From the NCBI GenBank assembly GCA_021234155.1, contig JAJEKV010000017.1:1107467-1171466 (forward strand): a DNA stretch of 64,000 nucleotides. The letters run 5' to 3'. The notes below the pieces were generated by a model. That model was given only the letters and a program-made list of their open reading frames with translations, had not been told where the DNA came from and made no database searches. The DNA is from Isoetes taiwanensis (Eukaryota > Streptophyta > Lycopodiopsida > Isoetales > Isoetaceae). Positions 2,470 through 54,727 of the stretch are shown piece by piece (positions within the stretch are counted from its first letter, which is position 1; each line of letters begins with the position of its first letter). The translations under genes and the position numbers were made by a program.

Positions 2470-5400
2470 GTGGCTCGAGAGTGTGTTTTCATGTTTCTTG
2501 CTATCGTTTCGTTTCATGGTTCTTGTTGGGTCATTTGATGTGTTTGGGGTTATTAATGGTTTGAAAGGGGGGTTTTGTTTTGTGTTGTTTTAGTTTCCTT
2601 TGTTTATGAATTGTGCATGGACCAAGCCTATTTCTAGCATGGTGCTAATGACTTGAGATTCCTGACATGAGATTTTTATTATTCTTTTTGCCTGCAGCGT
2701 TACATACTTTGTAGGAAGATGTGTTATTTGTTGTTTTTATGTTCTAAAGCATCAACAACAGTTCCAAGACCTCTACTTTATAGAAATCCTTGCGATCCAT
2801 CATTGATAGGATAGAGTTAGTTGTCTAAGAAATGAAAACCATTTTGATACAGGAAACAATACAGTTAACATACCGCTAGCTGGATCGTATGCGCACGACA
2901 ACCGAAGTTTTTTGGTGAGGTCTTTTGGTTATTATATGGTTGCTGCAACAATATATAATTCAACAACATACATTTCCCGGGTTTATTATATTTTTAGGAA
3001 AACTTTTCCTCCTTTATTATATTTTTACAAAAATTTTGTGACAACAGTGGACAATCAGTATCTCAAACTTTCATCTAGATACAACAATCTATGTGACTTC
3101 TATTGAACATAAATTTACAATTTTATGTCCTGAAATAAACGTAATAACAGAATACATAGCTACAATGGTTCAAGACGATGCTGCACAATCATACTTATAT
3201 ATCTAACCAGCAGTCATACATAAAACCATGGAAGTTGGGTCCTTATGAAGTTGAGTCATGATTGCAATGTCGATGTTCATCTTTCACAAAATGAGCTGTC
3301 CATTTCAATTGCACACCTAACTGCGACATATAATATTTTGATAATGTAAACTGAGTATGGAAAAATCTCTAGAAGCTAGAGAACATATGTACACATGAGC
3401 ACGTACCTTACTTCAAATCGTCTGAATTTATCATTGTTTGATGGCATATCAGGTTAAAAATTATACAAATGCTTCATCATCTGGCATAGCAAAAAACACC
3501 ATTGTCTTCGATTCTGGATCAACAATCTGTAAATACTCATAACATCAACAGACTGGAAAAGGCTTGATTCACGAGGTAAGATTTTCAAAGAAAAGATTGA
3601 TGCTGCAAGTTCATAGTTTTCAGGTTTGTCACAGAGATGCAACATAGATGAATAAGTGACATTGTTTTGGCTTGCATCTCAACATAGATGAATAACACTG
3701 TTTTGGAAATCCTGGTACTTTTCTGGTTTCTCCAACTATTTTTCCAACTATTTGCCATGCTATACACATAAAAAACGTGCATGTGCATGTCCTCAGACAC
3801 CTTTAAATCTTTCACAATGTTTCCTAATTTCTTGTAGCTGCTCGTTTTGAGGAAGTGGCTGCACATTTGCTTCAACCATATCCTTAAAAGAAAGGTTGGC
3901 TTCATGCAGTCTTTTTACTGCCTAATGGATGAGATCATCATAGTAGAAAAAGACAACGAGAAGGCAACAAACCTCGTTCTCACATGGCCCCATTAATTAT
4001 AAGCTAAAAAGCTAATTACCTTCTTTGGTCTGCATTAACACCGTTCCAAGTGCAAGGAAAGTTTGCATCTAAGATTTTATTACCTTTGCAACTCTGCCAA
4101 AATAGAAAGTTAGGGTCCATTCCTATGCCATACATTGTTTACTGAAAAAGATGCACGCGATTTTGCAATCACAGTTTTATGTTTATGAATTTTCCATTCG
4201 TGATGGTCTGCATCATGTCATTGGGTTTCAAACAGTTAGATATTGAGCTTTCATTTGGTATCACGCGGATTTCTTACCATGAATATGAATATATCATGGC
4301 TGGCACATATCAACGACCATGTATTATTTTGTCTCAAGCCAGTTGTTCTTGCAATTAAAAGGAGCATTGACTCGCTGTATGTTCAATAACACTTTTAATA
4401 CGTAAAGAAATCTATTGCATTCTAATGGTCATAACATATACATAGTAATTACAGATAAGGACTGCCTTATTGCTCATGTCTTTATGCACCATACTGACTG
4501 CTTCAGAAAGTACAACCTACCACAGCAGAGAGGTACTCCAAAATTGCAGAAAGGTAGACAGGAGCTCTGGCTCCAACATGATCTTTTAGAAACCTAGCAA
4601 ACGAAAAGGGCAAACATTTAAGTAAGATTATTCTGATCTTTCCTATTGTCTCCATGCATGTTACCTTAAGAATGTTTCCAGTATTACAATGTTGCAGGAA
4701 AAGCTTATTCCCCCCTTCAAATCTGCAAAATAGTCACACAGTTTTATGTGATGATCAACAACTATATGTGAGATGGTGCCCTTGGATCACTGCAAAATAA
4801 GCAGACATCTTAACATAGAAAAGAGACAAAGAAGGCATACACATTTTAGGATAAGTCAAGTCGAATATGGCAGCTACAGCCGTTTCCAGTTCCAATTTCT
4901 CATATTGCTACTTGTTTTACCAAATTCCCATTAATTGCCAGCAAGCCCCAGCTTGGCAGCAAGTTGTATATGCCTGGAGATGATACCAAGCAGCATTTAA
5001 ACCTAAACAATATGCAAAAACCCACATCAAAAAACCCACAAAAACAAAACATCAACTAAGATTTTTGTTGGATTCATACTGAGCTTTTAGTTTTTTCTTG
5101 CAAGCAATGATAGACAACGCCCAGAGGCACTAGGTTTAATCTCTTCTAACATCATAGATGCCACGCCATGACCACACATGATACGTCTCTAGACAACCCG
5201 GCAATGTAGCCCACTTCAAATGAAGATAGCTGCAGGCTTACAACAGCAAGAAAGCATGCCCTTACAACAGTAAAAAACATGCCCTAGTAATGAATGTTTT
5301 TTCACTGGGATGAGAAGCACTGCTATATTGCTTGCTGGAGAGCTATGTTCCATTCAAGGGCTACCCTTGAACAGAGGAAAAGCTGCCTACAACAAAATCG

Positions 5401-6319: not shown

Positions 6320-7780
6320 AAATTCCAAGTCTAATAAGACCTTTACTTTTAGGTTTATATTTAGTTCATTCAAGTGGGTCATAGAAATCTCCAGGTAAGT
6401 GCTTTCTTGCCTCTTATAAGCAGAGATTTTCATGATCTAAATGGTGTTTCTCTAAAATTGGAAATCCTTTTTGCTCTCACTCTTTTTTTTTTTCTTTTTT
6501 GAGGGAGCGAAGTTTTTTTTTATATTATTTTAGAATAATAAGTACAATGTTTCAGACATATAAAGGATTACTACAGGAGAAACCTCAACATCTTCGTCCT
6601 TTATGTGCAGAAACTTATTCTCTGCTTTGTATTATACATGAAGCGCATGGTAATCTCCCATATGGTAACCAGAGTAGACAAGAAGATACTAGAAAAAATA
6701 GGCTCCCGAAGCTTTCTTTCACATATTGAAGAACCAAAGCGGATAATCTGGAGATACTGAACAGAAGAGAAAGTACCATAATATGAGGTTGCTGCCTTGT
6801 AAGCATTTGAGATTCAAGAGGTCCTATAGATTTGTAATTCCTAAGGGCATTGCTAAGGACACCTCAAAAGCAAATAAGTAGTGATGTCGTGATATCAACT
6901 AGATTTTCTTTGAAAACCTTTAGATTGGAAGATGCCCATCACTAGGTTGAATTCAATAAGGCATTTAACTAGGCATATGTAGTTAGGTTTAAACTTAGTT
7001 TCTTATCATAAGTCAACTAAGTCTTAAATCAAAATATATTCATACCCCCAAGTGCACTTTGCAAGCGAACATGTAATGGAATAATAATATCTACTGGACT
7101 TTCTTATAAAACACTAGTTTTTATTCTAGGGAAAGGTCCTTTGCAAAGCAACAACATAGTGAAGTGGTGTTCCATTGAACTGAATGAATGAGTACAATGA
7201 TACATAGGGGTACCCAATGATGAACCCCAAAATGAGTAAGAAGAAACAATAGCATCCCCGATTGTCTAGACAAACCCAATTGTAACATAAAAATCTTCAT
7301 AGTGAGACTAGGCCCCAATAGAATGTCAAGACAGAAAAAAGCCAGAGGATCGCCGCTGCACTGCCCAAATCTCAACTCCAAAAGTACTGCCACTCGCCAA
7401 AGCTGCGCCTCAACAAGTCTTACTAAGATCTCCACCCCAATATTATACGTGCCCACCTTGGTAACCATCCAAGCTGCAACTCAAAACATGTCTCGCTAAG
7501 GTTGCCACACCAACTCCATGTGCCGACCCTTGGCTGCTCGTCAAAGCAACTCCGCCCGCACTGGGGAGATCAGAGCTAAAAATTAGGCAGCTCGGCAAGA
7601 CAAGCCACTCCACGAGCATTAGAGAGTTCAAAGCTCCAAAAACTGCAAAATTCATGCCAATAGTCAAAGTGTAAAGGTTAGGAGCCACCCACGGGCCAAG
7701 TGTCAGGAGACTATAAAACTGAACCAACAATACAAGAATTACAGTATCGAAAAAGAGAAATGATCCATGAGAATCCCTAG
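6320..7780. other. Intergenic stretch, nothing assigned
   Basis: AT-rich, with a poly(T) run near 6,485. The open frames at 7,121-7,730 on either strand show no family I recognise and no consistent splice signals. They are probably repeat-derived. Confidence 0.3.
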
Positions 7781-11574: not shown

Positions 11575-13854
11575 TCAATTGAAAGTTTCTAGTCCATTAC
11601 TATTCTTCTCAGATAAACTTATAGCTGCAGCAGTTCTATCTTGCATTAGCGAAGAAACCATTTCATGCTTATTTGCACGTCTGTTTGCACTGATCAAAAG
11701 TTCACATGTCATAGAATCTGGCCTGCATCCTTTTTGGGTCATCCTTCCATACATATTGTTGGCTTCCTCCAGCAGCCCTCCTTTAGCAAGAACATTTATC
11801 ATAGCATTAAAAGTAAGGCTGGAGGGATCATACCCCTTCTCCTCCATTTCATCCAACAGTCTGTAAGCGACATCAAACCTATACTGCCTACCAAACCTAT
11901 AAATTAATGAAGCATATGTGTTTAGAGTAGGTTTTATGCCACGTGCTTCCATTTCCCGAAACAAGTCAAAAGCCTCACTCATCTTCCCTGTTTTACCAAG
12001 GATTTCAATCATTTTCTCATACACAGAATCTAAGATCTGGCTGCTTCCTTTCATGTCTTCAACAACATTAATAGCTATGTCCAATTTACCATTCCTGTCC
12101 AGGGCATCCAGAAGTGCACAATACGTGTTTACCTCCGGAACAATACCTGTGACTTCCATCTCCTGGTAGACATTTACAGCCATTTCACAATTATCTGAAA
12201 TGGAAAAACTAACAACAATATGATTATAGGCTGTAGAATTTGCATAACCTGTCAACCCTTTCAAACCTTCAAAAAATGTTAAAGCCACAAGGGGCCTGCC
12301 GAGCTTGCAGTAGGCAAGAACAAGGTTATTAAAAACAGCAGGACTGAACTGATGACCTTTGCTTGCCATATCCTTGAAAAACCTACGAGCTTGATAAACA
12401 TCACCAACTTTGGCAAAATTTTGCACCAAAATATTATGCAGAATGCTATCTGGCGCATGCCCAACTTCCAGCATCTCCAGATATAAAGCGCATGCTTTTG
12501 CCATTTGACCAGATCTCCCAAGGTAGTCAATTAGGATAGAGTAAGAAATTTTGTCCACTCCACGCCCTTCTTCCTTCATGCTCTGGAAAAGAGAATATGC
12601 CCTGTCTTGGCTGCCTGTCTTGCAAAACGTATTTAGCATTGTGTTGTATGTAATCAGCTTCAATGCAATGCCATTTTCCTGGAGCATTTTAAAAACTTGG
12701 AATGCCTTGTCAACCTTGCCAAAATTTCCTAGGGATTCTATGAGCATGTTATATGCTGATTGAGTTGGTGGACATCCTCTTCTAAGCATCTCCTCAAAGA
12801 ACTTATATGCATCATCAGCTTTACCAATTCTACAAAGACTCTTGATGATAGTGACAAATGAGAGATAGTTGGGCTTGTACCCTCTTTCTTCCATTTCTTT
12901 TAGTAGTTTGCATGCACCATGCAGATTATTTGTCCGGCAAAGGGCAAGGATAAAAATTGTATAGATATGAAAGCCATTTGCACTTTGCTCCTTTAGTGTC
13001 CTCTCCTTTAATCTTATGGCATCATGCAGGGCATCCTCTCGTAATAGAAAATTAATAATGTAGGTATAAGTACTTGTAGACGGAACCCAATCAACTCGCT
13101 CCAACTTATCAAGAATCTCAAGCATTTCCTTTAGCTTATTTGCTTCACCATAGCTACATATAAATTGCCCCAGCAATTCCTCGATCTTTACTGCTTTACC
13201 ATAGCATTTCAGAAGAATGGAAAATGTTCCATAATCTGGAATACAGGAATCCACCTGCATTTCTTCTAACAAAAAGTTTAACTCTTCATATCTACCAGCT
13301 TCTGCAATAATTTCTAGCAGCACATTATAATTATAAGTAAGATGACGATATCCATCTATCTTTCTGGCCCAATTAAAGAAGCCAAACGCCACATCTACAT
13401 TGCTCAACTTTTTTGAAACTTGGGCAACAAGAAAAGGTTCAAGTTTTAAGGCTGCATGCTTCAGACGATCTTCACAATCTGTGCTCCATAATTTCTGATC
13501 AATCATTGAAACAATGCTAACTATTGAAGCCCTATCTTCGGCAGAATCAAATGTCCTAATTTGCATATAATCTTCCTTACTTGTATTGAGCAACTCTTCA
13601 GCACGTAATTCTCGTTCGATATCGGCCAAGTCCCTCTCTTGCATTCTGCTGCAGGATACTGTACAAATGTGCCGCCATCGCCACTTTTGTTCATCAATAC
13701 CTAGGGAAAATGGGCTGGTTCTGTACCTCTGGGAACCCTGAGGCTTAAGGAATTCAAGTGCATTTCCTACAGTCAATAAATTTGAACGCCTGATGTTAGC
13801 TTTCAAAAGGCAAGCTAAAATTGGATTGCGCCAAAGTGAGCCTTTTCTGTGCAT
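11575..13854 (-). CDS. P-class pentatricopeptide repeat protein, intronless
   Basis: Encodes about 759 residues from the first in-frame ATG (13,852-13,854, MHRKGSLW). The frame stays open 35 codons further upstream, but no ATG lies there before an in-frame stop. The N-terminal ~70 residues are rich in Arg, Ser and Lys and poor in acidic residues, as expected for an organelle transit peptide. A linker and the FFNWARK signature that often precedes the repeats follow. The rest is an almost continuous run of about 15 P-type 35-residue PPR motifs, for example TYNTMLNTFCKTGSQDRAYS and TYASLIYRFGRQYRFDVAYR. There is no E or DYW extension. P-class PPR proteins bind single-stranded organelle RNA and act in its processing, stability or translation. 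Mitochondrial targeting is inferred, and the RNA target cannot be read by eye. This is the only undamaged host gene in the window. Confidence 0.9.
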   Translation of the reverse strand: MHRKGSLWRNPILACLLKANIRRSNLLTVGNALEFLKPQGSQRYRTSPFSLGIDEQKWRWRHICTVSCSRMQERDLADIERELRAEELLNTSKEDYMQIRTFDSAEDRASIVSIVSMIDQKLWSTDCEDRLKHAALKLEPFLVAQVSKKLSNVDVAFGFFNWARKIDGYRHLTYNYNVLLEIIAEAGRYEELNFLLEEMQVDSCIPDYGTFSILLKCYGKAVKIEELLGQFICSYGEANKLKEMLEILDKLERVDWVPSTSTYTYIINFLLREDALHDAIRLKERTLKEQSANGFHIYTIFILALCRTNNLHGACKLLKEMEERGYKPNYLSFVTIIKSLCRIGKADDAYKFFEEMLRRGCPPTQSAYNMLIESLGNFGKVDKAFQVFKMLQENGIALKLITYNTMLNTFCKTGSQDRAYSLFQSMKEEGRGVDKISYSILIDYLGRSGQMAKACALYLEMLEVGHAPDSILHNILVQNFAKVGDVYQARRFFKDMASKGHQFSPAVFNNLVLAYCKLGRPLVALTFFEGLKGLTGYANSTAYNHIVVSFSISDNCEMAVNVYQEMEVTGIVPEVNTYCALLDALDRNGKLDIAINVVEDMKGSSQILDSVYEKMIEILGKTGKMSEAFDLFREMEARGIKPTLNTYASLIYRFGRQYRFDVAYRLLDEMEEKGYDPSSLTFNAMINVLAKGGLLEEANNMYGRMTQKGCRPDSMTCELLISANRRANKHEMVSSLMQDRTAAAISLSEKNSNGLETFN

Positions 13855-13989
13855 CCGGATAATCGGACTAGGGTGTCCAGCATTGAACACTAAATGGTGC
13901 TTACACTGTTTGGAAAATAGATTCTTTGCAATTCTTACAGAGGTTACATCTACAAACAATATGGTATTTGGGTCGCAAAATTTGGTTTA

Positions 13990-16189: not shown

Positions 16190-17323
16190 ATTCTGGCTTT
16201 TGGGGTGTCATTCCAGTTCCCGTTCCGGGTAACTATGCTCCAGTGTTATGGATTATGTACTGGCAGAGGAACAGGATCTGCATCTGATTATCCATTTTGG
16301 CACTGGAACAGACAATCGGAATGAGGAAGTTGACTCAGACCACCACCCCCTTTTCTTGCATGTAGATTGGCAGGCTACCCATACATTGCCTCAACCCCCG
16401 TGTGCCCCAGTTGTGCCTGGACTACGGCCGTGCAAAGACCTATGCCCAGATGGTTGAGCATGACCTGGAGGGAATACTTTAACTTTCCACACTGTAGCAG
16501 CAGACTGCCCAGTTGACTCAGTTGCTTTTGTTGGTTGCTGACAAATGCTTTGGGAGAGGTTGCTCACATAGGCCCTTGGGAGCTACCACCTTCCCCCGCA
16601 ACCAGTGGTTTGATGATGAATGTAGGAAGTTCAAATGATGGCTCCAACAAGTCATTGGCCCCACCTTGCATCCACATGCCATCAGCCAATACCACTCCTT
16701 CCTCAAGGCCAAGAAAGTCAAATATCTCGTAGAACACCAGCAACAAATATTCTATCTCCTTGATCGTCACTCCAGGACATTCTAGAGAAAGGTATTGAGC
16801 AAACCTGCACAACTTATAGGGAACATTACCTTAGAGCAATGGGCGCAATAGTTACAGCGACTTTATGATCCATTGGGGGGTTGGGCAGCAGTACCCCCCA
16901 GATGGGCCTAGCACTGGTCATTACAGAAGGAGATGTTATAATGGACATACAATGCCTCGCTAATGGGAAGGCAGTAGATTTGGATGGCATGCACACAAAG
17001 CTTCTCAAATGGTTTGGGTCTCTGATGGCGCCTGTCCTCACGACATTATTCAATAGAGAATTGCAATAAGGCTTCCCCCTGCAGTGGATCAAGAGTTGTT
17101 CCCATATACAAGGCAGACGACCCTCACTGCCCAGCCAACTATCACACAATCATGATCAGATTTCTTTTTGTAAAATTGTTAGCTGGCATCCTTGAGTAGC
17201 AGTGGACCATATGGGTAGAAGATGTAGAGGTACATGCTCTGACACAGGCAAGCTTCTGGCCCAAGCATTCCACCATTGACCATATTTTCACCCTATGTAC
17301 ATTGATTGAGGATAGCAAGAATT
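16190..17323 (+). mobile_element. LINE ORF2, 5' part (endonuclease and start of RT)
   Basis: A decayed non-LTR retrotransposon. About 16,245-16,370 reads MDYVLAEEQDL ... VDSDHHPLFLHVDW, the C-terminal end of an apurinic-type endonuclease with its SDH motif. About 16,600-16,790 holds the linker (FDDECRKFK ... FLKAKKVKYLVEHQQQIFYL). About 16,960-17,320 holds the start of the reverse transcriptase: KAVDLDGMHTKLLKWF, then HSTIDHIFTLCTLIEDSKN at the break. Several stops and frame changes are present. It is cut at 17,323 by the insertion of a DNA transposon and resumes in frame at 23,894. The organisation is L1-like. Confidence 0.75.
17320..17323. repeat. AATT target-site duplication, left copy
   Basis: AATT directly before the GGGTG end of the 6.6-kb element. 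The same four bases directly follow its CACCC end at 23,894-23,897. With one copy removed, the LINE frame reads on as SKNCQQDLYCCFIDF. Confidence 0.75.
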
Positions 17324-17624
17324 GGGTGCAAAATCGGTACTGGGTAGCAGAAATCACCGTCCGGACGCCGCTTACAAGTGCTTAAAATCGGTGTGTTTTA
17401 AACACGACGTGCGTGATTGAAGTATTGACATGTAGGGTGCGCGCCCGTCAAATGACAGGCTGAGAGAATCATGAACATGTTTGGTGCCGGAAACATGAAT
17501 GCCTGTAGCCCGCCATATTCCTGGATGGCGGGCTAACCCATCTTGATTGTTTCCAAGAATTGCCTGAACCGAAATTCAACAATTTGCCCTCACCAATTTT
17601 GCAATACACAGAAATCCGGGATAG

Positions 17625-19300
17625 ATGAAGCCCAATTCCTCTCCCCGTTCAATTTACAGAGCCATTGATGCAACAAGGAAGAGAAATCAGAGGCAGAGAT
17701 TGTATGCAAAGAAGGTAGCAATGAAGAAGAATTCCCCTTCTGAAGATTCGCCTTCAAAGAAGAATAAGAAATTGAGGCCCGAGTGACCAAGAATAAAGAG
17801 AAATTTCAGGAGAAATTTATGAAGTATTCAACCAAATTAGTACAAATGTTGATGACAATGACAAAGGCGCATCCTTGACAGTCTTCTTTGGAGGCAAGGG
17901 ATTTACCAATTGCTTCTATAAAGAAATCTAAGCGAGTTACTATGGCCGAGCAAATGGTGAAGAATTTGAAGGAAACAATGCAAGAACATAAGTTTGAGAG
18001 GAATCATGACATGCTTCGTGCAAGGAAGTCCACCCTGATAATGGCAGCAGCAGGTAGAAATGGTGTCAAGCCATTGAATCAAGCAGAAGTGGCAGTTTGC
18101 TCGGCATCCCGGAAAAACAATTTCAAATGCTTTTCAAAGAAGGGTGCAAGCTAACAAAAGGGAAGGACCTTGGTCAATGTTCAGGAGGAGGAAGCGGATG
18201 GATAGCATGTTAGATTACAATAGAGGAGCTGTTATCAAGTTCTGGACAGAAAATACAAGAGTTTCTCCATACAAGAAAGACGTGAGGAAGTATGTATCAG
18301 AGACAGGAATAAAGATGGAACATCCAATTCACCTTCTTGAAGTCAGCCAAGTAAGTATTCATCCTATATTGTAGGGTTCATTATATGTAGCATTTATTTG
18401 GCATTCACACGATTTCCCTGCAGTTGCAATTCTACCTCAGATTTAGAGAGGAGAATCCTCATATCAAAATTGCATTGCAGACTTTTGAGAGGTTGAAACC
18501 GAGTTTTGTAAGGATGGTGCAGGTGCTATTATCAAAAGGCTGCTAAGTAAGGAACAACTCAAACCCAATGGTGTGCAACTGAGGCATGCTAAAGATATTG
18601 TAAAATTTCTGTGTACATATTTCAGCAGTCTACCAGTCGATGAAACAGATGAGATCAAAAGATATTTTTGGGAAATTGAACTTGCTGTTGTGGCAAACAT
18701 GGAAGAATATGAAATTGAAACACTCAAAGGCACAAAGAAGATTCATCAGATCGGACACACCGGAGGAGTAAACCAAACAGGCTTGCTCATAGATGCACTC
18801 ATGTTTACGCTTCGTTTTGCATGGATCATAATTGGGACTCTGCATCAATACAGGTAGATTTGGAAAGTGGGAGGTGACTGACTTAAAACTAGGAGTTGAG
18901 AAGAAAAAGGAGACTCTTGAACAAGCCAACGAATGGATCAGTAATTTGGTAGAGGTAGGTGACAATTTTGCAGTGAATGCGGAGGTAGACAATTCAGAGG
19001 GTGTGGACTTCTACATCCTCAAGTGCCTGAACCAAATGCACACTTGAAGATTCATACAAAGATGGATGGGGGCAAAAATTTGGAGTGCATGAGGTTATCT
19101 TAAGTGGTTTGTATTATCAATTCTTGGGTAATTTCAAGTATATGTTGCTCACTAAACAACCCGAAGCCTCCATGCACAGCCATGTGGTAAGATATCCTAA
19201 AATTGATATGGAAAAATAGAAGGCCTGAGACATGTACAGAATTTCACAGGAGACCCACGAAAAAATTATGGCCAGTCTCCCAATAACAATGTAATTCTTT
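17625..19300 (+). CDS. Basic protein of the AATT element, multi-exon, frame damaged
   Basis: Starts at the ATG of MKPNSSPRSIYRAIDATR, a strongly basic N-terminus. Further blocks are EARDLPIASIKKSKRV ... NHDMLRARKSTLIM (17,888-18,150), AVIKFWTENTRVSPYKKDV with HPIHLLEVSQ (to about 18,350), an intron (GTAAGT at about 18,351 to TGCAG at 18,423), LQFYLRFREENPHIKIALQ, then KPNGVQLRHAKDIVKFLCTY, and GVDFYILKC near 19,010. Frame changes separate several blocks, so this copy is probably not functional as it stands. The block from FWTENTRVSP to the TFERLKP region resembles, from memory, a conserved region of proteins encoded by repeats in plants and animals. I cannot name the family. It could be the mobility protein of the element. 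End coordinate approximate. Confidence 0.45.
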
Positions 19301-19772
19301 GACACTTAACGAAATTGATGTGATTCTTTTCAAGTGATTTGTTGTTCCAGCACCTAAGCACGTAAGCACATATTTTTATATATATTAACAATAGTGAGGA
19401 TGCACAAGGGTGGTGTGCATGGACACGTACTTCGAAATGAAGAGTGAATTGTTGTTTATAAGAATGTAGAGTTGTGACATTGGAATAAGGTTCAATTATT
19501 TATTTTGGTACCATCACTATCCCAACATTCTTGGCAAAATTATATTGTCAAGGCATTCCCACGATGTGACATGTGTCAATTCGACTGGTCATACGAAATA
19601 TTTAAGCCTGGTTACGAATTAATTGTTCTGGCGCGTGTGAGGTTTATCGTACACTGACGCGCCTAAGCACAGGACTTAAGCAGTCTAGGCGCCTAAGCGT
19701 AAGCTCTTCTCACAAGCTCACGCTCCGCCCTCTGCACTCCGCCTCCCAATTCCTCATTCCGCCCACTCTACA

Positions 19773-20123
19773 ATGAAGCGAGCAAGATCAGAGGAGCCGG
19801 AGGTCACCTCGAAGAGGCGCTTACTAAGCGTCGAAGAGGTGTTCCCTCCACTCTTCCCGCCTCTGCCGGAAATTCTTGCTGCCTCTGCTGCCTCCTCTCC
19901 TGCCCACTCTGCTGCCTCCTCCTCCGCTTCCACTCCCATCGCCTCCCAGTTTGAGGAGGAATCTGATTCCGATTCCTCATCTTCTGATTCCTATGAGGAA
20001 TCAGAAAATGAGGAATCGGAAATGAATTCGCAGGAGTATGTCACTGCTGTTATGCAGGGTTGGATAGGGGACTCGGAAGAAGAGGACGAGTCCGAGAAAG
20101 AAGAAGAAGACGAAGAGGAAGAA

Positions 20124-20158
<35 letters not shown>

Positions 20159-20282
20159 AGAAGAAGCCGACTTGGAGGAGTTCAGGGCGGTCCTTAAAGG
20201 TACATGCATTTTCATTTGTTTTCTGTTTTCAATTTTTCGTTTGTTTAATCTTTCATTTTCATTTGTTGCAGATGGAGAATGA
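19773..20282 (+). CDS. Small acidic protein of the AATT element
   Basis: The start context is CTACAATGAAG. Exon 1 (19,773-20,199) encodes MKRARSEEPEVTSKRRLLS, a short basic nuclear-localisation-like start, then a Pro/Ala/Ser segment, two Ser/Asp/Glu blocks and a run of more than 20 consecutive acidic residues (about 20,097-20,166). It ends DLEEFRAVLK. A GT..AG intron (20,200-20,271) leads to a tiny last exon that adds DGE and a stop, about 145 residues in all. There is no known domain. Acidic stretches of this kind occur in histone-binding and chromatin proteins, but a function here is only a guess. It ends shortly before the TAAGCACTT cluster. Confidence 0.5.
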
Positions 20283-20599
20283 ACATGCAGAAGCAGATGA
20301 AGATGAAGAAGACACCCCCCCCCCTTGAAGAAGACACCCCCTGCCCTCTAGAAGACAATGGCCTCAGGGCCGAATTTTTTTGTAAAATTTTTGTATATAA
20401 CTTTTTTTGTACACTGGCCTGGGGGCCTTTTTTTATAAAAATTCTTGTTTCCATCAAACGATTTTGTAACTGTTTCTATCTTTGTTTCATTAAAATCTCT
20501 TCTTCTTCTATCAAATGTTTTTGTTGTCTATCTATCACATTTATGAAGTTCGAATTCCTGTGCAGTCCATTCAGATTCTGCTTGAATGTAACAGTGCTC

Positions 20600-20960
20600 T
20601 AGCTCTTTAATTAGTTTCAAACACTAAGCATTTTAATCAGTTTCAGCAGTGCCACTGAGTAAGCACTGGAACACACGAGCACTTATGCAATAAACAGCTA
20701 CCTTCAAACAGTTATATACCTTAACAATAAGCACTGCACCTTAACTGCATGACAGTAAGCACATGATGACATTAACACTTCTGCTAGCGTTAAGCAACTA
20801 CATAAAAGTAACTGTCACTGCATGACAATAAGCAGTATCTGCCATTAAGACTCATACCAGAGTAGCACTTGCAGGAATTTTTTTTTTTAAGCACTTGATA
20901 AGTTTTAAGCATCCCTTTCAGTCAGCATTGAAGTAGATATAAACACTATAGCAAAAACTT
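20600..20960. repeat. Cluster of TAAGCACTT-type motifs in the AATT element
   Basis: About ten TAAGCA/AGCACTT variants occur within 360 bp between the convergent 3' ends of the acidic-protein gene and the FCP1-like gene. The same motif lies just inside both ends of the element: AAGTGCTTAAAAT near 17,377 and CAGCACTTAAAGTGCTTAAA near 23,835. It is also found in the region before the acidic gene (19,330-19,700). It may be a protein-binding site of the element's mobility machinery. Confidence 0.55.
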
Positions 20961-21248
20961 ATAGACAAGTCTGCATTGAACTACATAAACAATATAGCAA
21001 AAAGATTCTTAAATTAAGATAAAGATGGTACATGAAAAGTGTAGGATTCCTTGGCCTACATAAATGACAAACAGGCCAATAATTATGGAGAATGACAATC
21101 GTCATCACCATAAACCTTCTCCAATTCCTCCTTCACAAACCTTTCAGAATCAATGTTTTTTCGAAAAGTCTTTCCAAGCATAGCTTCATAATCTTTCTAT
21201 CTATCTTGGGCCAGGGCTTGTATCTGTGTGTGTTCTTCACCGGTGACT

Positions 21249-23744
21249 TCATTTCTTCCTCGCCTTGGCCTGCCGTATTTCTTCTATCTTTGGGGTGAGT
21301 ACTGTTAGCACTTCATCATGGACATCCATCTTGAATGCAGGTACCCGCAGAAATTTCCAGGGACTGCTAAGGTAAGACTTGTATAATGAATCATCAAGAA
21401 GCAAAGTCTTACCTTTGAATCTTGGGTATGGCTCATATATTTTCCCAAAGTGGCTTCATCATGATCGACAAATCGGGTTTGTTAGGGTGGTGAAACCGGT
21501 GCGCACACATTTTTCCCCGGTCCCCCATACAAATTGAAATCTGTCCCTCAAATCTGGACATAGTACTTGCAGCACATCTTCCACATTAGAGAGTTGCATT
21601 GATGACCATATACCAACACAACACTTCTGTAACAAAGTCTTCAAGAAGAGGACTGCTTCTGGTGTGAATATCACTTTCTTTCTGCTAGTGTATGTCATTG
21701 TCAATCCTGCTTCCAAGCGTATGTGTTCATTTGCACCAAATGTTTTTACCAACACACCATTTAAATCCAAGACAATGAGTTTATCTTTTGCTGCCAAATC
21801 AATATTTAGTACGTTGGAACATCCTGAATACCTACACAACAGGAATTACTACATGAATAAATAGATGAAGATGAAAATGAAAAATGGGTTGAATGTGGAA
21901 ACCTTTCTGTATCAACAAAGAGGATTCTCGACCTAACGTAATCAACCGGTAATCCTACAGTGAATGCAACAAAAGAAAATCAATAATATTCAATGTCTTA
22001 AGCAACACGATTTCTGGGCTTGCCCAGCAATGCCCACACTGACCCTCCAGGGTTCTGCAGGGCAGCAATCACTTTTTGAACATCAGGCTCACCTGAAACT
22101 TGAGGCCCTGATTCTGCATTTTCTTCAGAACACACTTCGATAGGTGTGGTGTCATGATTGAGACTGCTTCCTGCATCTTTTGCATAGCTACTTCTTGTTC
22201 TCTTTCTTGGAACCTGAACAACTTCTGTGCTGTCCTCAAGCTTACCCCTCTTTGTTCTTCTGCCCTTTCCTTTTGGCAAATATTCACCCAAGTTGCCCTC
22301 ATCCGATGGAATTACTCCCTCAACTTCCTTAGGTGCTTCAGTGTGTACAATCGGGTCTGTTGTGTTTTCCACAACTGGTGCCAGTGTTTACAACCGGTCT
22401 TTGTTTTCTGACTTCTTCTATAGCTTCTTGATCGGTGGTGGTGGTTCTCATTGTTGCATTCAAATCAGTCACAATTGATCAGTACTCCTATAGGACTTTG
22501 CGGTGTTGTGCATCTTCAAATGGCACCATTGTCCTTCTTTGAACACTCAACGGTGAGACCTCAATTGCGGATCTGGATTAACACATCCTTTTTGGTGTAC
22601 TATTTGAAGCACCTCGCAACATGGCCAAAACCTAGCTCGTCAAATACACCCTCTGGCACAGATCCAGGGCAACCATGAATATATTGTCCTCCTCTCAACA
22701 ATGAACAACAAGCTATATGGTACTCATGTTGGCAATTGAGTGCTAAACTTAACCCAGAAGCTTTAGTGAATTCCGGACCACATGCCTAACATGTATAAAA
22801 TGGATCTTCCACTAACAACTTATCTCATATAATAGTAGAGATGCTAAATGTTGCGGGAGTATCCATTTTCAGCTTCCACAAATTGTTTATGTAGAAATGC
22901 GGAAGTCTGTTCTTCTTCGAGAACTTTTAACTCCTCCTCAAGTTTGAGTTTACGTTTGACCTGCTCATTAACGATATATAGGGTTCATTGCTTTTTGTAC
23001 CTTGTTCCTGCCAAGTTTCCATCCGGACATCGCTCCAAATCTTTAATTTCGCCTCCAACTCACATGTTGGATTAAGCTTGAACTCCTCCCGTTTTGTAGC
23101 CAAATCATTTGTGGCCTGTCTTAAACCTGCTTTCCCTCTTCCAACATCATTTTCTCGTAATTCGTGAGGCCTTCTCATTGCCTTTCAGCTCACTTCCCTC
23201 CGCTTCCAGATTCTTTGTGATAAGTAAAACTGATTTTCCAATCTCCCATCTTTGCATTCTCTAAGGTTTTTATGTTTTCATCACATGCACTGATCTCATT
23301 TGATCCAGCTGCCACCTTTGGCTTTGCCTTCATTTCAGTTTTCCTAACATGTGCTACAACATCTCCCTCTATTTTTACTTGTCTATTGTTGTGGTATCTT
23401 TGGCATTGCACAGCAAATGCAGCCCAGTTTACTTTGTGTTCCTCAGGTGCAAGTATTGATCTAGTGCAATTTTCAAACGCAAAAGCAAGGGCCAGTTGCT
23501 TTCTTACTTCTTTGTTGTGACAATTCTTGTAGATTTTTCGGCAGAGTGTTTCCAACTTCTCTTGAAGATGCTCCTTTGCACAGTGCCATTTTATCTTTCC
23601 CTTGTTCAACTTCTTTGTCCAAACAGAATCCCAATCTCGATCCGTGACATTATTTTCCAACCAAGCTTCTTCCTCATGGGGCTTCACCCCCGAATTGCAC
23701 AGACCTCTGATGCTGTGAAAATCATCCGCGCTCCATGCCTCCAT
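21249..23744 (-). CDS. Multi-exon protein with C-terminal FCP1-like (HAD) domain, carried by the AATT element
   Basis: The ATG at 23,742-23,744 starts MEAWSADDFHSIRGLC. A large first block follows (to about 23,190; ASP/LYS-rich, with a repeated charged pattern), then a coiled-coil-like block (about 23,000-23,130), a Cys/His block around 22,650-22,750 (LNCQHEYHIACCSLLRGG, RING-like spacing) and a Lys/Arg-rich block (22,000-22,372). The last part is an FCP1-type domain: KLIVLDLNGVLV (motif I), IWSSMQLSNVEDVL, FVWGTGEKC, then in the last exon KTLLLDDSLYKSYLSSPWKF (motif III) and a stop at 21,249. FCP1/SCP enzymes dephosphorylate proteins such as the RNA polymerase II tail. Motif I here is DLN instead of DLD, losing the acid/base Asp, so it may be a pseudo-phosphatase. 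Several exon joints are unproven and some blocks may be damaged. Confidence 0.6.
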
Positions 23745-23893
23745 CGTCAACAAAGTGAAACAGTTGATCCGAAGCGCGCCTTTGGGAAAAGGAGGGAGAA
23801 GGGCGAAGGGCGTGGCCGACGTCCACGAGTTTCAGCACTTAAAGTGCTTAAACGCTTCGCCAAAAGTTGTACCCCACTAGCAATTTTACACCC

Positions 23894-24235
23894 AATTGCC
23901 AACAAGACCTATATTGTTGTTTTATAGATTTCACAAAGGCTTTTTACACAGTACCCTGGGACAATTTATGGGACCCCTGTCGACTTGCAAAATGCAATAT
24001 ACAGGTTATATGAGGCATGATCAGGCCATCTCATACCATCAGGCATCATCAGTAGTATTGGGGTGCGCCAAGGTTGCCCCCTCTCCCTGACGCTCTTTGA
24101 CCTTTATATTGATCAGCTGGAAGATTGGATTGATGAGCACGAAAGGGCAGGCACTCAACTCATGCACCACATAATTCGACAACTCATCTATGCTAACGGT
24201 GTGGACTTCTTGGCCTACAATCACATGCAATAAGA
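23894..24235 (+). mobile_element. LINE ORF2, 3' part of the RT (continuation)
   Basis: Resumes in frame after the inserted transposon: CCFIDFTKAF (RT motif A region), then SIGVRQGCPLSLTLFDLYID (motif B), then LIYANGVDFLA, where active LINEs have YADD. The catalytic YADD is therefore changed to YANG. Stops are present. Similarity ends at about 24,235, without a recognisable 3' tail. Confidence 0.75.
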
Positions 24236-50029: not shown

Positions 50030-52260
50030 TGTTGGTGTTTCCGCCAAGTTAGTGGTGTTTCGTGCTATATTCTTGGTGTTTCGGCCTTTTCGGTGGTGTT
50101 TCCGCCAACTTCGTGGTGTTTACGGCGGGAAAAGAGGTGTTTCAAGCCACATCCTTGGTGTTTCTGACCACAAGACTACAACAAGTAGAACACTGAGTGG
50201 TGTTAAAGGTAGTGGTGTTTCTGGACATTAGAGTGGTGTTTCTGGCCACCCATATGGTGTTTCTTGCCAAATTGATTGGTGTTTCTGGCCAATTGAGTGG
50301 TGTTTCTGGTCGGGTGTGACCTCTAAATGGAATACAATATCTAAAACATTGGGAAGATACAATATCTAAAACATTGGGAAGAGTGGTTGCAATACAATAT
50401 CTATAACCTTGAATTGCAAGTTTCAACAAGTGAGTGCAACCCCTTGTAGGAATACGAGTGCCACATCCTTGGTGTTTCTGGCCACAAGAGCACAACATGC
50501 AAAACATTGAAGGGTTGTTTAAGGTAGTGGTGTTTCTTGCCATTTGGGTGGCCAGCCATATGGTGTTTCTGGACATTAGGGTGGTGTTTCTGGCCACCCA
50601 TATGGTGTTTCTGGACATTAGGGTGGTGTTTCTGGCCACCCATATGGTGTTTCTGGACATTAGGGTGGTGTTTCTGGCCACCCATATGGTGTTTCTGGAC
50701 ATTAGGGTGGTGTTTCTGGCCACCCATATGGTGTTTCTTGCCAAATTGATTGGTGTTTCTGATTGAGTGGTGTTTCTGGGCAGGTGTTGTGAGCACATTG
50801 AGAAGGATAATTAGAATACAATATACAATATATAGAACATTGAGACCTCTAAATGGAATACAATATCTAAAACATTGAGAAGAGTGGTTGCAATACAATA
50901 TCTATAACCTTGAATTGCAAGTTTCAACAAGTGAGTGCAACCCCTTGTAGGAATACGAGTGCCACATCCTTGGTGTTTCTGGCCACAAGAGCACAACATG
51001 CAAAACATTGAAGGGTTGTTTAAGGTAGTGGTGTTTCTTGCCATTTGGGTGGCCAGCCATATGGTGTTTCTGGACATTAGGGTGGTGTTTCTGGCCACCC
51101 ATATGGTGTTTCTGGACATTAGGGTGGTGTTTCCGCCACCCCCGGATGGTGTTCCTGGACATTAGGGTGGTGTTTCTGGCCACCCATATGGTGTTTCTTG
51201 CCATATTGATTGGTGTTTCTGGCCAATTGAGTGGTGTTTCTGGGCAGGTGTTGTGAGCACATTGAGAAGGATAATTGGAATACAATATACAATATATAGA
51301 ACATTGAGACCTCTAAATGGAATACAATGTGGTTGCAATACAATATCTATAACCTTGAATTGCAAGTTTCAACAAGTGAGTGCAACCCCTTGTAGGAATC
51401 TGGTGCCACATCCTTGGTGTTTACGGCCACAAGAGCACAACATGCAAAACATTGAAGGGTTGTTTAAGGTAGTGGTGTTTCTTGCCATTTGGGTGGTGTT
51501 TTGGACAGTTTGGTGGTGTTTCCGCCATTAGGGTGGTGTTTACGGACATTTGGGTGGTGTTTTACGGGCCGGTTTGGTGGTGTTTCGGCCATTTGAGTGG
51601 TGTTTTCGGACATTAGGGTGGTGTTTACGCCACCCATATGGTGTTCTTGCCAAATTGATTGGTGTTTCCGCCAATTGAGTGGTGTTTTGAAGGCAGCACA
51701 TTGAGAAGGATAATTGGAATACAATATACAATACATAGAACATTGAGACCTCTAAATGGAATACAATAGCTAAAACATTGAGAAGAGTGGTTGCAATACA
51801 ATATCTATAACCTTGAATTGCAAGTTTCAACAAGTGAGTGCAACCCCTTGTAGGAATCACGAAAGTGCCACATCCTTGGTGTTTCGGCCACAAGAGCACA
51901 ACATGCAAAACATTGAAGGGTTGTAAGGTAGTGGTGTTTCCGGACGGTTTGGTGGTGTTTCGCCATTAGGGTGGTGTTTCGGACATTAGGGTCGTGTTTT
52001 TACGGACATTTGGGTGGTGTTTACGGACAGTTTGGTGGTGTTTTACGGCCGTTTGGTGGTGTTTACGGACATTTGAGTGGTGTTTCCGGACATTAGGTTG
52101 GTGTTTACGCTACCCATATGGTGTTTACGGACATTAGGGTGGTGTTTTCGGACATTAGGGTGGTGTTTACGGCCAGCCCTTGGTGTTTCGGACATTAGGG
52201 TGGTGTTTCGGACATTAGGGTGGTGTTTCACGGCCAAGTCGGTGGTGTTTCGGACATAAT
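50030..52260. repeat. GGTGTTT array with ~500-bp higher-order units, inside the MULE
   Basis: By eye there are about 60 GGTGTTT cores in 2.2 kb, mostly spaced 20-24 bp. Two sub-types alternate: GGTGTTTCTGGACATTAGGGT and GGTGTTTCTGGCCACCCATAT. The array is organised in about four larger units, each opening with a unique AATACAATATCT..CAAGTTTCAACAAGTGAGTG segment (about 50,325, 50,855, 51,310, 51,755). The units at 50,401 and 50,902 are nearly identical over hundreds of bases. Toward the right the core becomes GGTGTTTACGGACATT, the form present in the terminal inverted repeats. All frames are open over long stretches because the period lacks stops, so a protein is unlikely. It lies exactly between the 3' ends of the two convergent genes. 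Confidence 0.9.
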
Positions 52261-52523: not shown

Positions 52524-54727
52524 TTACCACTTAACATTACTATTCGCAAGTAGAGGAAATGTTTTCAAAGAGAGTGTTAGAATTATTGCAATACCTTCAC
52601 ATCGTGTGATATGATCTTCGCATTCCTTCGAGAAAACGCTAAGTGAACTCCTCTTCTTCCTCTTCTTGTGGCTCTCCACGAAAGGTACTGGTCTAGCAAT
52701 GGTGTTCCCATTGAAGTCTTGTACCATGGATAGACTCGGTGCCATGAAATTGACATTTCTACTTTCACTTAGCCTTGCCAGCTTATTGCTAAGTTCAGCT
52801 AAAAGGAACCTAGCTTCATTCCATACCTGGGGGCTCCTAGCAATGGTCTCCTTGAGACCTGCCATTGTCTCGTCTATGCTCTCTAACACCTTGGGCTTTT
52901 CACTCAAACCAGCCCCAATTGTACAATCCAATTCTTCATCATCGGATGCAACTCCTGTGCATGGCCCCTCTTCCCAAGAAGGCATGGTGTCATCATATGC
53001 CTCGGCAAAGGACCTTAGATTGGACAGCCCGCCAGCCTGAGAACCATGTAGAGTACCACAAAACCTTAGAATGTCTTCCTCTTTATACTTGGACATCATC
53101 CTGATCACCTTGACTTGATGCTTGCACATATTCCCTTTCATACCCCATGGACAATCACATGATGACCAATTTTCATGTGCAACATCCACTAAGTAAGGCA
53201 AAGCCTCTCGGTTATCATCCCAGTTGTCCATGTTTTGACTCCACACCTCGGCTCTCCCCTCCTTGAAGTTCAGCCATCTAACAGCTACATCTGGAATTTC
53301 TCGAGCACCTATGATGGCAGTTTCAACTATGTGCTCCTGTCTCTTGTTGGTTTTAAAACCCGACTCCTTCATGAACCTATCAAAGGACAAGTGAGTTTGT
53401 AATACACCTGTAAGCATGTAAATGAGCCAATCTATTCTCCTTCCTCTCAAGGCATGCTTGGATACCCCTAATCTCCTCTTCATATGCGAATGGTAGGACT
53501 CTATACCAGCATTAGTCTCTTGGTTAGCATGTGGATACATCCTTGTGGCAATTATCCAATGTGTGATGTTATTGGTCCAAACTCGGTTCATATACTTCAC
53601 AACCCTCTTCCACATCTTGTACTTTTCCTTGAATTCATCCAACAACTTCTTGGCCTCTTTGGTGCATGATGTCCTTCTTGGGTCAATATCTACTTTAGTG
53701 GCATACATAATATGACCGAGTTCCTTAAACATTTCCCCCCTCACCTTCTTGTTCTTCACGTGCTTTAAAAGCAACTTCATCCAGTTTCTTCGAACATGCC
53801 AAATACACAACTGAATTTTGGTTTCGGGCCAAACATCTTTCAAGGCATTGATTTCAGCATGTGCATCATCTACAATGAAGCATGCAGGTTCCCAAGTTGG
53901 GGTCTTCCCTATGTATGCAGTTCTTCATTGCAATCAGCCAAGGATGGATGTCCTCCTCGGTGGCACTAGAGGATAGAACCCAAGCAACAGGGACACCATT
54001 TCCATGCGTGTCATAAACTAGCAAGGTATAAAGGCCGTAGCAGTGGTCATTGGTCTTGAAGGTTGAATCTAAAGCTACAGCATTCCCCCTTCCATGCTCT
54101 AACAGGATCTTCATTTGGAACGGTGTGATGATGCCAATGTGAAAGGGACTCCCTCCTGATACATGAACACATATTCTGGATGTAAATCAACCCACATCCT
54201 AACACTTGTGGCCACATTCTTGTGCAGCATCCACGTGTCGGCCAGACCCGACTTTTATGGGACAAATTATATAAATCATCCATGGCTAAGAATGCATCTC
54301 TGTTCTTGGGGCATTGGGATCCATCCTCTTTTCTATCTCCCATTGTTCCTCGTGTTGACTGGGAAGACCTCTTGGGGAGTGTGGTTATGAAGCAAATGTT
54401 GGTAGGCCCAAGCCTTCTTACCCTTTGAGAGCCATGGAGCTACATCATGCCTTGTCCTTGCGCATTGGGGATCCTCGGTTCCATGGCGGACTTTCTCTTC
54501 ATTATCAATGTGCCTCATCTCGTAGTATGTAATTTTACATATATCGGGGCCTCGGATACAACCTGCTTCACACGAAAGTGGCACACCGCAACCTCGCCTA
54601 ATACTTCCTCTTCTCTGTCTCCTTGAGTAGGAAGGATTCTTCTTCTTTTCTTCAAAGAATTAGAGCTTTCGGGTTGTTTTATCTTTGACCTCCCGAGAAC
54701 GTTCCTCACGATAATCTTCGGGGCCAT
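52524..54727 (-). CDS. MULE transposase (DDE + SWIM), several frameshifts
   Basis: Starts MAPKIIVRNVLGRSK (ATG 54,725-54,727). An N-terminal region with a CHFRVKQVV block and YYEMRHIDNEEKVRHGTEDP follows, then DTWMLHKNVATSVRMWVDLH, then the catalytic domain: GNAVALDSTFKTND (first Asp), GVPVAWVLSSSATEEDI, FIVDDAHAEINAL (second Asp), QLCIWHVRRNW, and NAGIESYHSHMKRRLG (Glu). The SWIM zinc finger CDCPWGMKGNMCKH follows at about 53,150, and the protein ends in a variable tail with a stop at 52,524. DDE residues and the CxCxnCxH finger are present. The last 439 codons are uninterrupted, whereas the first half needs about five frame changes. This copy is probably not active, unless the indels are assembly errors. 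MULE transposases cut at the inverted repeats and make 9-bp target duplications, as seen here. Confidence 0.9.

Follow-up and report, generated by a model that had tools for sequence, protein, structure and literature searches.

The 64,000-nucleotide stretch of DNA from the lycophyte Isoetes taiwanensis analysed here (the window) contains at positions 17324-23893 a 6,570-bp element with imperfect GGGTG inverted ends, which is inserted into an old long interspersed nuclear element (LINE) and flanked by AATT on either side. It harbours the remains of a transposase gene in its left half and of a second, unusual gene in its right half. With a probability of about 0.7, we are dealing with an internally deleted, non-autonomous copy of a large cut-and-paste DNA transposon that comprises several families in this lycophyte; its most likely affiliation is with the Sola superfamily or a close relative of it. 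Genome counts given below refer to 1,658,258,908 bases in 1,110 contigs of I. taiwanensis.

Ends, target site and copy number

The boundaries of the element are defined by the following features:

17320..17323: left target-site duplication (TSD), AATT (end comparison; other copies have variable 4-mers)
17324..17344, plus strand: left terminal inverted repeat (TIR), GGGTGCAAAATCGGTACTGGG (arm comparison and exact-end matches in the genome)
17324..17623, plus strand: left terminal region of about 300 bp, nearly invariant in the sampled copies, putative cis-acting transposase-binding region (divergence per bin)
23873..23893, minus strand: right TIR, reading GGGTGTAAAATTGCTAGTGGG in that orientation (other copies have a nearly identical end)
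23894..23897: right TSD, AATT (arm comparison and joining of the flanks)

Including AATT, the inverted arms (17320-17344 and 23873-23897) match at 84 % over 25 nt, and at 17 of 21 positions without it; this comparison confirmed the ends and AATT repeats proposed in an earlier note on the same DNA. Joining of the flanks in silico yields a single AATT and an open LINE reverse transcriptase-like frame (...IEDSKNCQQDLYCCFIDFTKAFYTVPW). When the genome was searched with the joined flanks, 39 of the 40 rows scored (the best 40 of 1,518 candidates) were other LINE copies crossing the junction with 82-85 % identity, the 40th being the window's own left flank. Related LINE copies give the empty site for the insertion in the window, and joining of the flanks confirmed the restored LINE reading frame, likewise claimed in the earlier note.

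The element family is abundant in the genome. First-look searches retrieved 543 candidates for the left 161 bp and 527 for the right 198 bp (40 scored each), as well as 2,741, 2,959 and 4,399 candidates for three pieces of the transposase (150 of each scored, all matching). Exact-end counts, which are less biased, were based on 21 exact bases of the left and 22 of the right end with a base other than A required at position -5; they amounted to 201 and 252 genome occurrences, respectively (reversed controls 0 each), and thus exceed chance. The fetched sample comprised 15 loci, 14 of them with both ends, while one (L056) stopped short of the right end. All 14 sister copies measured are longer than the window copy (6.76-7.93 kb, 13 of them at least 7.38 kb).

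The 4-bp flanks of the 14 fetched copies agree in full in 12 cases and at 3 of 4 bases in the other two. For a broader pairing, 75 of the 100 left-end rows listed (those on contigs shared with the right-end list) were combined with all 100 right-end rows; among these matches, 37 left/right pairs lie within 15 kb, with 4-bp flanks identical in 32, agreeing at 3 of 4 bases in 4 and without agreement in 1, some of the pairs being fetched copies counted again and two fetched copies representing one duplicated insertion. Since the duplicated 4-mers vary between copies, with a weak bias for A at position 1 and for T, then A, at position 4, AATT is not a fixed target. The TSD is 4 bp of varying sequence with AATT as a single instance, and a fixed AATT or TTAA target was ruled out. 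Hence, of the 4-bp AATT site postulated in the earlier note, the 4-bp duplication is real, whereas its sequence differs from copy to copy. That note had regarded other flanking duplications as speaking against the element; other 4-mers were indeed found, but they support the transposon and change only its supposed AATT site.

In a second family with a related end (GGGTGTAAATTCTATAGTGG), the matches listed include 5 pairs on opposite strands and no more than 30 kb apart, all of which have identical 4-bp flanks. The right end of one second-family copy (L065) was not found, and the right side of this copy looks interrupted; by eye, an apparent retrotransposon gag with a CCHC zinc knuckle lies there (L065:7200-9001).

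Transposase and history of the copies

The left half and the middle of the element contain the following features:

17879..18350, plus strand: decayed N-terminal transposase exon, basic and helix-turn-helix (HTH)-like, with FWTENTRVSP..KKDV and HPIHLLEVSQ, in overlapping broken frames (exon counterparts in sister copies)
18512..18514: junction of an internal deletion of about 1.05 kb, catalytic core lost (comparison with sister copies)
18513..19276, plus strand: transposase 3' remnant in shifted frames, from ..DGAGAIIKRLLSKEQLKPN on (95 % identity to L064 residues 327-406, then residues 407-582 in other frames)
19773..20282, plus strand: acidic, Ser/Glu-rich open reading frame (ORF; MKRARSEEPEV...) within the hypervariable middle (long alignments of this stretch with 7 of 14 other copies)

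The basic protein, which the earlier note considered the best candidate for the mobility protein, corresponds in sister copies to an exon upstream of the transposase core. Its longer counterpart in the second family (L065:578-1741) matches HTH_23 with an E-value of 0.015, which is under the cut-off. In the exon of the basic protein, HPIHLLEVSQ is followed by a GTAAGT donor, as read by eye. The region lost in the window copy is covered by a frame of 627 amino acids in a sister copy (L064:4928-6811, minus strand, stop included). The deletion of about 1.05 kb lies at element position 1190 of the window copy, where L064 residues 1-326 are gone, including the first two acidic blocks, and those from 327 on are kept in three frames. 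Thus, the impression that the window copy has no recognisable transposase was correct, because most of the core is deleted there, and the 627-residue sister frame is itself without a Pfam match.

The blocks IDFAEN, WSDGCSSQFK and HGKGEHDG are kept in the second family (L065, L067) and in a third one (L066, L069), and DFAEN, WSDG and HGKGEHDG are present in L064; the cores of L064, L066 and L069 share 60-68 % identity with that of L067. The core corresponds to L064:4931-6811 on the minus strand and, on the plus strand, to L067:416-1129 and L069:1-681. Where both can be read (3 rows), 105-117 residues separate the first and second acidic residues, and all 5 core rows examined, of the 8 aligned, show the spacing D2-38-E or D2-40-D. 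From this order of motifs we infer an RNase-H-type transposase (D..D-38-E or D..D-40-D).

Divergence of the copies was determined by bin as difference from the per-column majority of 15 copies. The first 150 bp are 0.0 % off the majority in 14 of 15 rows (6.9 % in L063) and positions 151-300 0-2.7 %, while at the other end the values are 0-3.4 % for bin 7301-7450 and 0-2.0 % for the last 200 bp in 13 of 15 rows (9.1 % in the window copy, 13.4 % in L063). Interior bins outside the middle are 2.5-13.3 % and the middle (3401-4600) 9.7-25.9 % off the majority. As most copies were picked by their ends, the argument from conservation is limited to element positions 158-300 and to the stretch 200-350 from the right end; these terminal stretches outside the end queries still stand out as conserved. 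End conservation as proof of selection was toned down on account of this sampling. Together, the conserved termini and mostly intact TSDs suggest that already diverged, defective copies moved in trans. A transposase from more intact relatives would bind the conserved terminal regions of about 300 bp, excise the element and insert it at cuts staggered by 4 bp. Having no enzyme of its own, the window copy would have been moved in trans.

The two ends of the window copy are unequal, the right one (23690-23893) being 9.1 % and the left one 0.0 % off the majority, which may mean that this copy is a mosaic or that its right end is that of a minor subfamily. Two further copies (L049 and L063, G000:C907:15489101-15535928) are located 38 kb apart and share flanks and TSD; they therefore represent a segmental duplication after insertion. 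Between the two, divergence is about 3 % in the flanks, 5-9 % over most of the element and 12 % in the last 200 bp. The middle (window 19691-20290) is of at least two types, with a long alignment in L049, L050, L051, L057, L060, L061 and L063, and at most 108 nt or none in the other seven copies. The acidic ORF was dropped as a fixed third gene, since long alignments of its stretch are restricted to 7 of 14 copies.

The second gene

The second gene is located on the strand opposite to the transposase, and the two genes are convergent in relatives. Its parts in the window copy are:

23190..23745, minus strand: N-terminal part of the second protein, MEAWSADDFHSIRGL... (ORF list, between-copy comparison)
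22678..22791, minus strand: RING-H2-like Cys/His motif, with a stop inside in the window copy (sub-threshold RING models in relatives)
21998..22387, minus strand: basic linker (ORF list, between-copy comparison)
21285..21845, minus strand: NIF/FCP1-like phosphatase domain, motif I DLNGVL, with a DDS motif in the C-terminal part at 21285-21443 (PF03031 match)

The minus strand of the element's right half thus encodes a protein with a conserved N-terminal region, a charged stretch (possibly a coiled coil, as judged by eye), the RING-H2-like motif, the basic linker and the NIF/FCP1-like domain. The PF03031 match at 21459-21845 (E-value 3.1e-6) attains 27.4 bits and that of L065 35.8 bits, compared to a gathering cut-off of 21.8, so that by the Pfam gathering score the domain belongs to NIF in two families. 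RING models did not reach their Pfam cut-offs (12.6 bits of 27.4 and 13.9 of 27.3), the Cys/His pattern fitting by eye only. Active NIF/FCP1 enzymes carry D-x-D-x-T/V as motif I, and departure from it is linked to inactivity. In both families of the element, motif I is DLNGVL; because it reads DxN, the second protein may bind, and not dephosphorylate, its phosphorylated partners. Compared to the NIF/FCP1-SCP phosphatases (PF03031), the element's domain is alike in scoring above the Pfam cut-off in two families, and differs in its motif I (D-x-N-G-V), in being linked, within a transposon, to a RING-like motif and in falling under the NCBIfam subfamily cut-offs. A literature search of incomplete coverage retrieved no transposon with a NIF domain.

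Host gene pieces are often taken up by transposons, NIF is a host-type domain and copies are not alike in the middle of the element; the second gene might accordingly be a chance capture from the host, or a nested element, without a role in transposition. We consider this rather unlikely, since the same modules occur in the same order and on the opposite strand in two families sharing only about half of their transposase residues. Between these families, the modules of the second gene have 26-54 % amino acid identity (34-54 % with copy L053), and similarity in blastn is confined to the transposase region. Moreover, 8 of 34 hand-picked low-identity NIF rows of a third group are within 6 kb of a listed core, all 8 of them downstream and convergent. 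Conservation of the second gene across diverged families suggests selection. The protein with its RING-like motif, basic linker and NIF-like domain would then accompany the transposon as a standing accessory factor and not as a passenger taken up by chance.

A Helitron-like insertion (PIF1 helicase, E-value 1.7e-81) resides within the second gene of L064 (L064:155-3935); by eye, it ends with a GC hairpin followed by CTAG.

Superfamily assignment and significance

In the literature, Sola elements are described as having a DDD transposase, 4-bp TSDs, a size of mostly 2-9 kb and TIRs of 11-1124 bp, and as being present in Physcomitrella and apparently uncommon in flowering plants (PMC10741241). 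Further papers list Sola1 in Physcomitrella and Sola in two Capsicum species (table in PMC9033089), and report Sola from Azolla, more than from Salvinia (PMC6786969), and from Ceratopteris (PMC6890710). The view of the earlier note that a 4-bp duplication fits no plant superfamily is therefore superseded: Sola has 4-bp TSDs and is reported from Physcomitrella and ferns.

Like Sola of these seed-free plants, the element has a 4-bp TSD (32 of the 37 pairs listed, 12 of 14 fetched copies, 5 of 5 second-family pairs listed), short imperfect TIRs (21 bp, 17 of 21 matching), a size within the range usual for Sola (6.76-7.93 kb in 14 copies) and a seed-free plant as host. Three conserved acidic residues, in the conserved blocks DFAEN, WSDG and HGKGEHDG, may correspond to those of the DDD transposase, the third being E or D. 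By TSD, short TIRs and size as described for the superfamily, membership in Sola is likely. The element differs in its conserved opposite-strand second gene with RING-like and NIF-like parts, which the literature excerpts examined do not mention for Sola. Sola2 of Dictyostelium and Polysphondylium is similar in its AT-rich 4-bp TSDs, TIRs of 12-21 bp, a transposase accompanied by a second protein, and families with a common 5' part and different other parts; there, however, the second protein is Fanzor1 (PMC3627910). Literature searches of incomplete coverage for Sola in lycophytes or related plants turned up no element of this kind, and the paper on the Isoetes genome (PMC8566536) does not use the terms 'Sola' and 'TIR' in its main text.

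Several points weigh against the explanation proposed here. (i) The likeness to Sola is one of TSD, TIRs and size as described for the superfamily. The 627-residue frame of L064 has no Pfam match at E 10 among 24,736 models, HMMER filters concealing most matches above E-values of about 0.1; the cores of L067 and L066 gave only chance-level Pfam matches (best E-value 0.06), and the transposase had no NCBIfam match and no PDB sequence match below an E-value of 0.6. The third acidic residue reads E or D, and since AlphaFold predictions were of low confidence (mean predicted local distance difference test scores of 45 and 36) and unusable, the RNase H fold is deduced from motif order only. (ii) Neither the 14 long copies nor the window copy contain a long transposase frame, the longest ORF of any kind having 253 amino acids; L064 is broken upstream of the core (by reading) and carries the Helitron, the core of L065 has stops, and a fully autonomous copy was not seen among the copies examined. 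(iii) For the NIF-like domain, the NCBIfam dullard and FCP1 models are far under their cut-offs, and the best PDB match is a partial one to FCP1 (E-value 0.062). Furthermore, 26 of the 34 NIF rows of the third group have no listed core nearby, the core list comprising 150 of 4,399 candidates.

The absence of matches among Pfam and NCBIfam models could also indicate a separate, undescribed cut-and-paste superfamily sharing only the 4-bp duplication with Sola. In line with this, scans of phages (50,697 records), plasmids (72,556), IMG/VR and GTDB contigs gave no relatives of the transposase, the contig scans being seeded by short peptide patterns that distant relatives would escape, and the second gene is not mentioned for Sola in the literature excerpts examined. 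To our knowledge, though, Sola is absent from Pfam, in which case a Sola element would be expected to yield no Pfam match. As the element agrees in TSD, TIR length and size with Sola, known from moss and ferns, a separate superfamily appears improbable.

Even less probable, and in our view very unlikely, is membership in another of the known superfamilies that duplicate 4 bp or close to it, i.e., Ginger, Chapaev (EnSpm), Academ, piggyBac or Kolobok. Kolobok targets the 4-bp TTAA, and hAT duplicates 8 bp, compared to 4 bp in the element. The TSD of piggyBac is reported to be the 4-bp TTAA, too; TTAA-only targets are excluded by the varying TSDs. The C/DxxH signature between the second D and the last E (hAT, MULE/MuDR, P, Kolobok, Dada) is absent in 5 of 5 core rows examined. 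Kolobok thus differs in target and signature, and resembles the element in that its lineages combine a DDD/E transposase with a lineage-specific second protein, i.e., KolX, RecQ helicase or exonucleases (PMC9587614). Ginger has TSDs of 4-6 bp, but it is described with TG..CA ends and a Gypsy-type integrase (PMC10741241), whereas the element ends with GG..CC and its transposase frame matches no integrase model. MULE, with TSDs of 7-12 bp (PMC10741241), was rejected, as was hAT, in view of the 4-bp TSD.

Other features of the window, all on the minus strand, include an open frame of 803 amino acids of a PPR protein gene at 11578-13986 (PPR_2, E-value 2.5e-91), a frame at 50142-50810 in which a short unit resembling ARNTIWVARNTTLMSRN is repeated several times, and a frame of 466 amino acids at 52527-53924 with a MULE transposase match (E-value 1.7e-7) and a SWIM motif below threshold, which may be a MULE remnant or a domesticated gene.

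Taken as a probable member of Sola, the transposon displays a two-gene design in three diverged families and is abundant in a lycophyte; what is new here is probably the unusual conserved second gene in a family of a probably known superfamily. The transposase core, for which no Pfam model exists, could help to label unclassified repeats in genomes of seed-free plants. If the NIF/RING protein is needed, the concrete question arises how a transposon uses a phosphatase-like host domain. One may speculate, as a doubtful extension, that the lycophyte elements form a distinct two-gene lineage in which the RING-like/NIF pseudo-phosphatase is indispensable for transposition or for evading silencing by the host, e.g., by binding the phosphorylated tail of RNA polymerase II or another phospho-protein and tagging it for degradation. 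If true, host transcription would here be modulated by a transposon-encoded protein of a kind so far undescribed.

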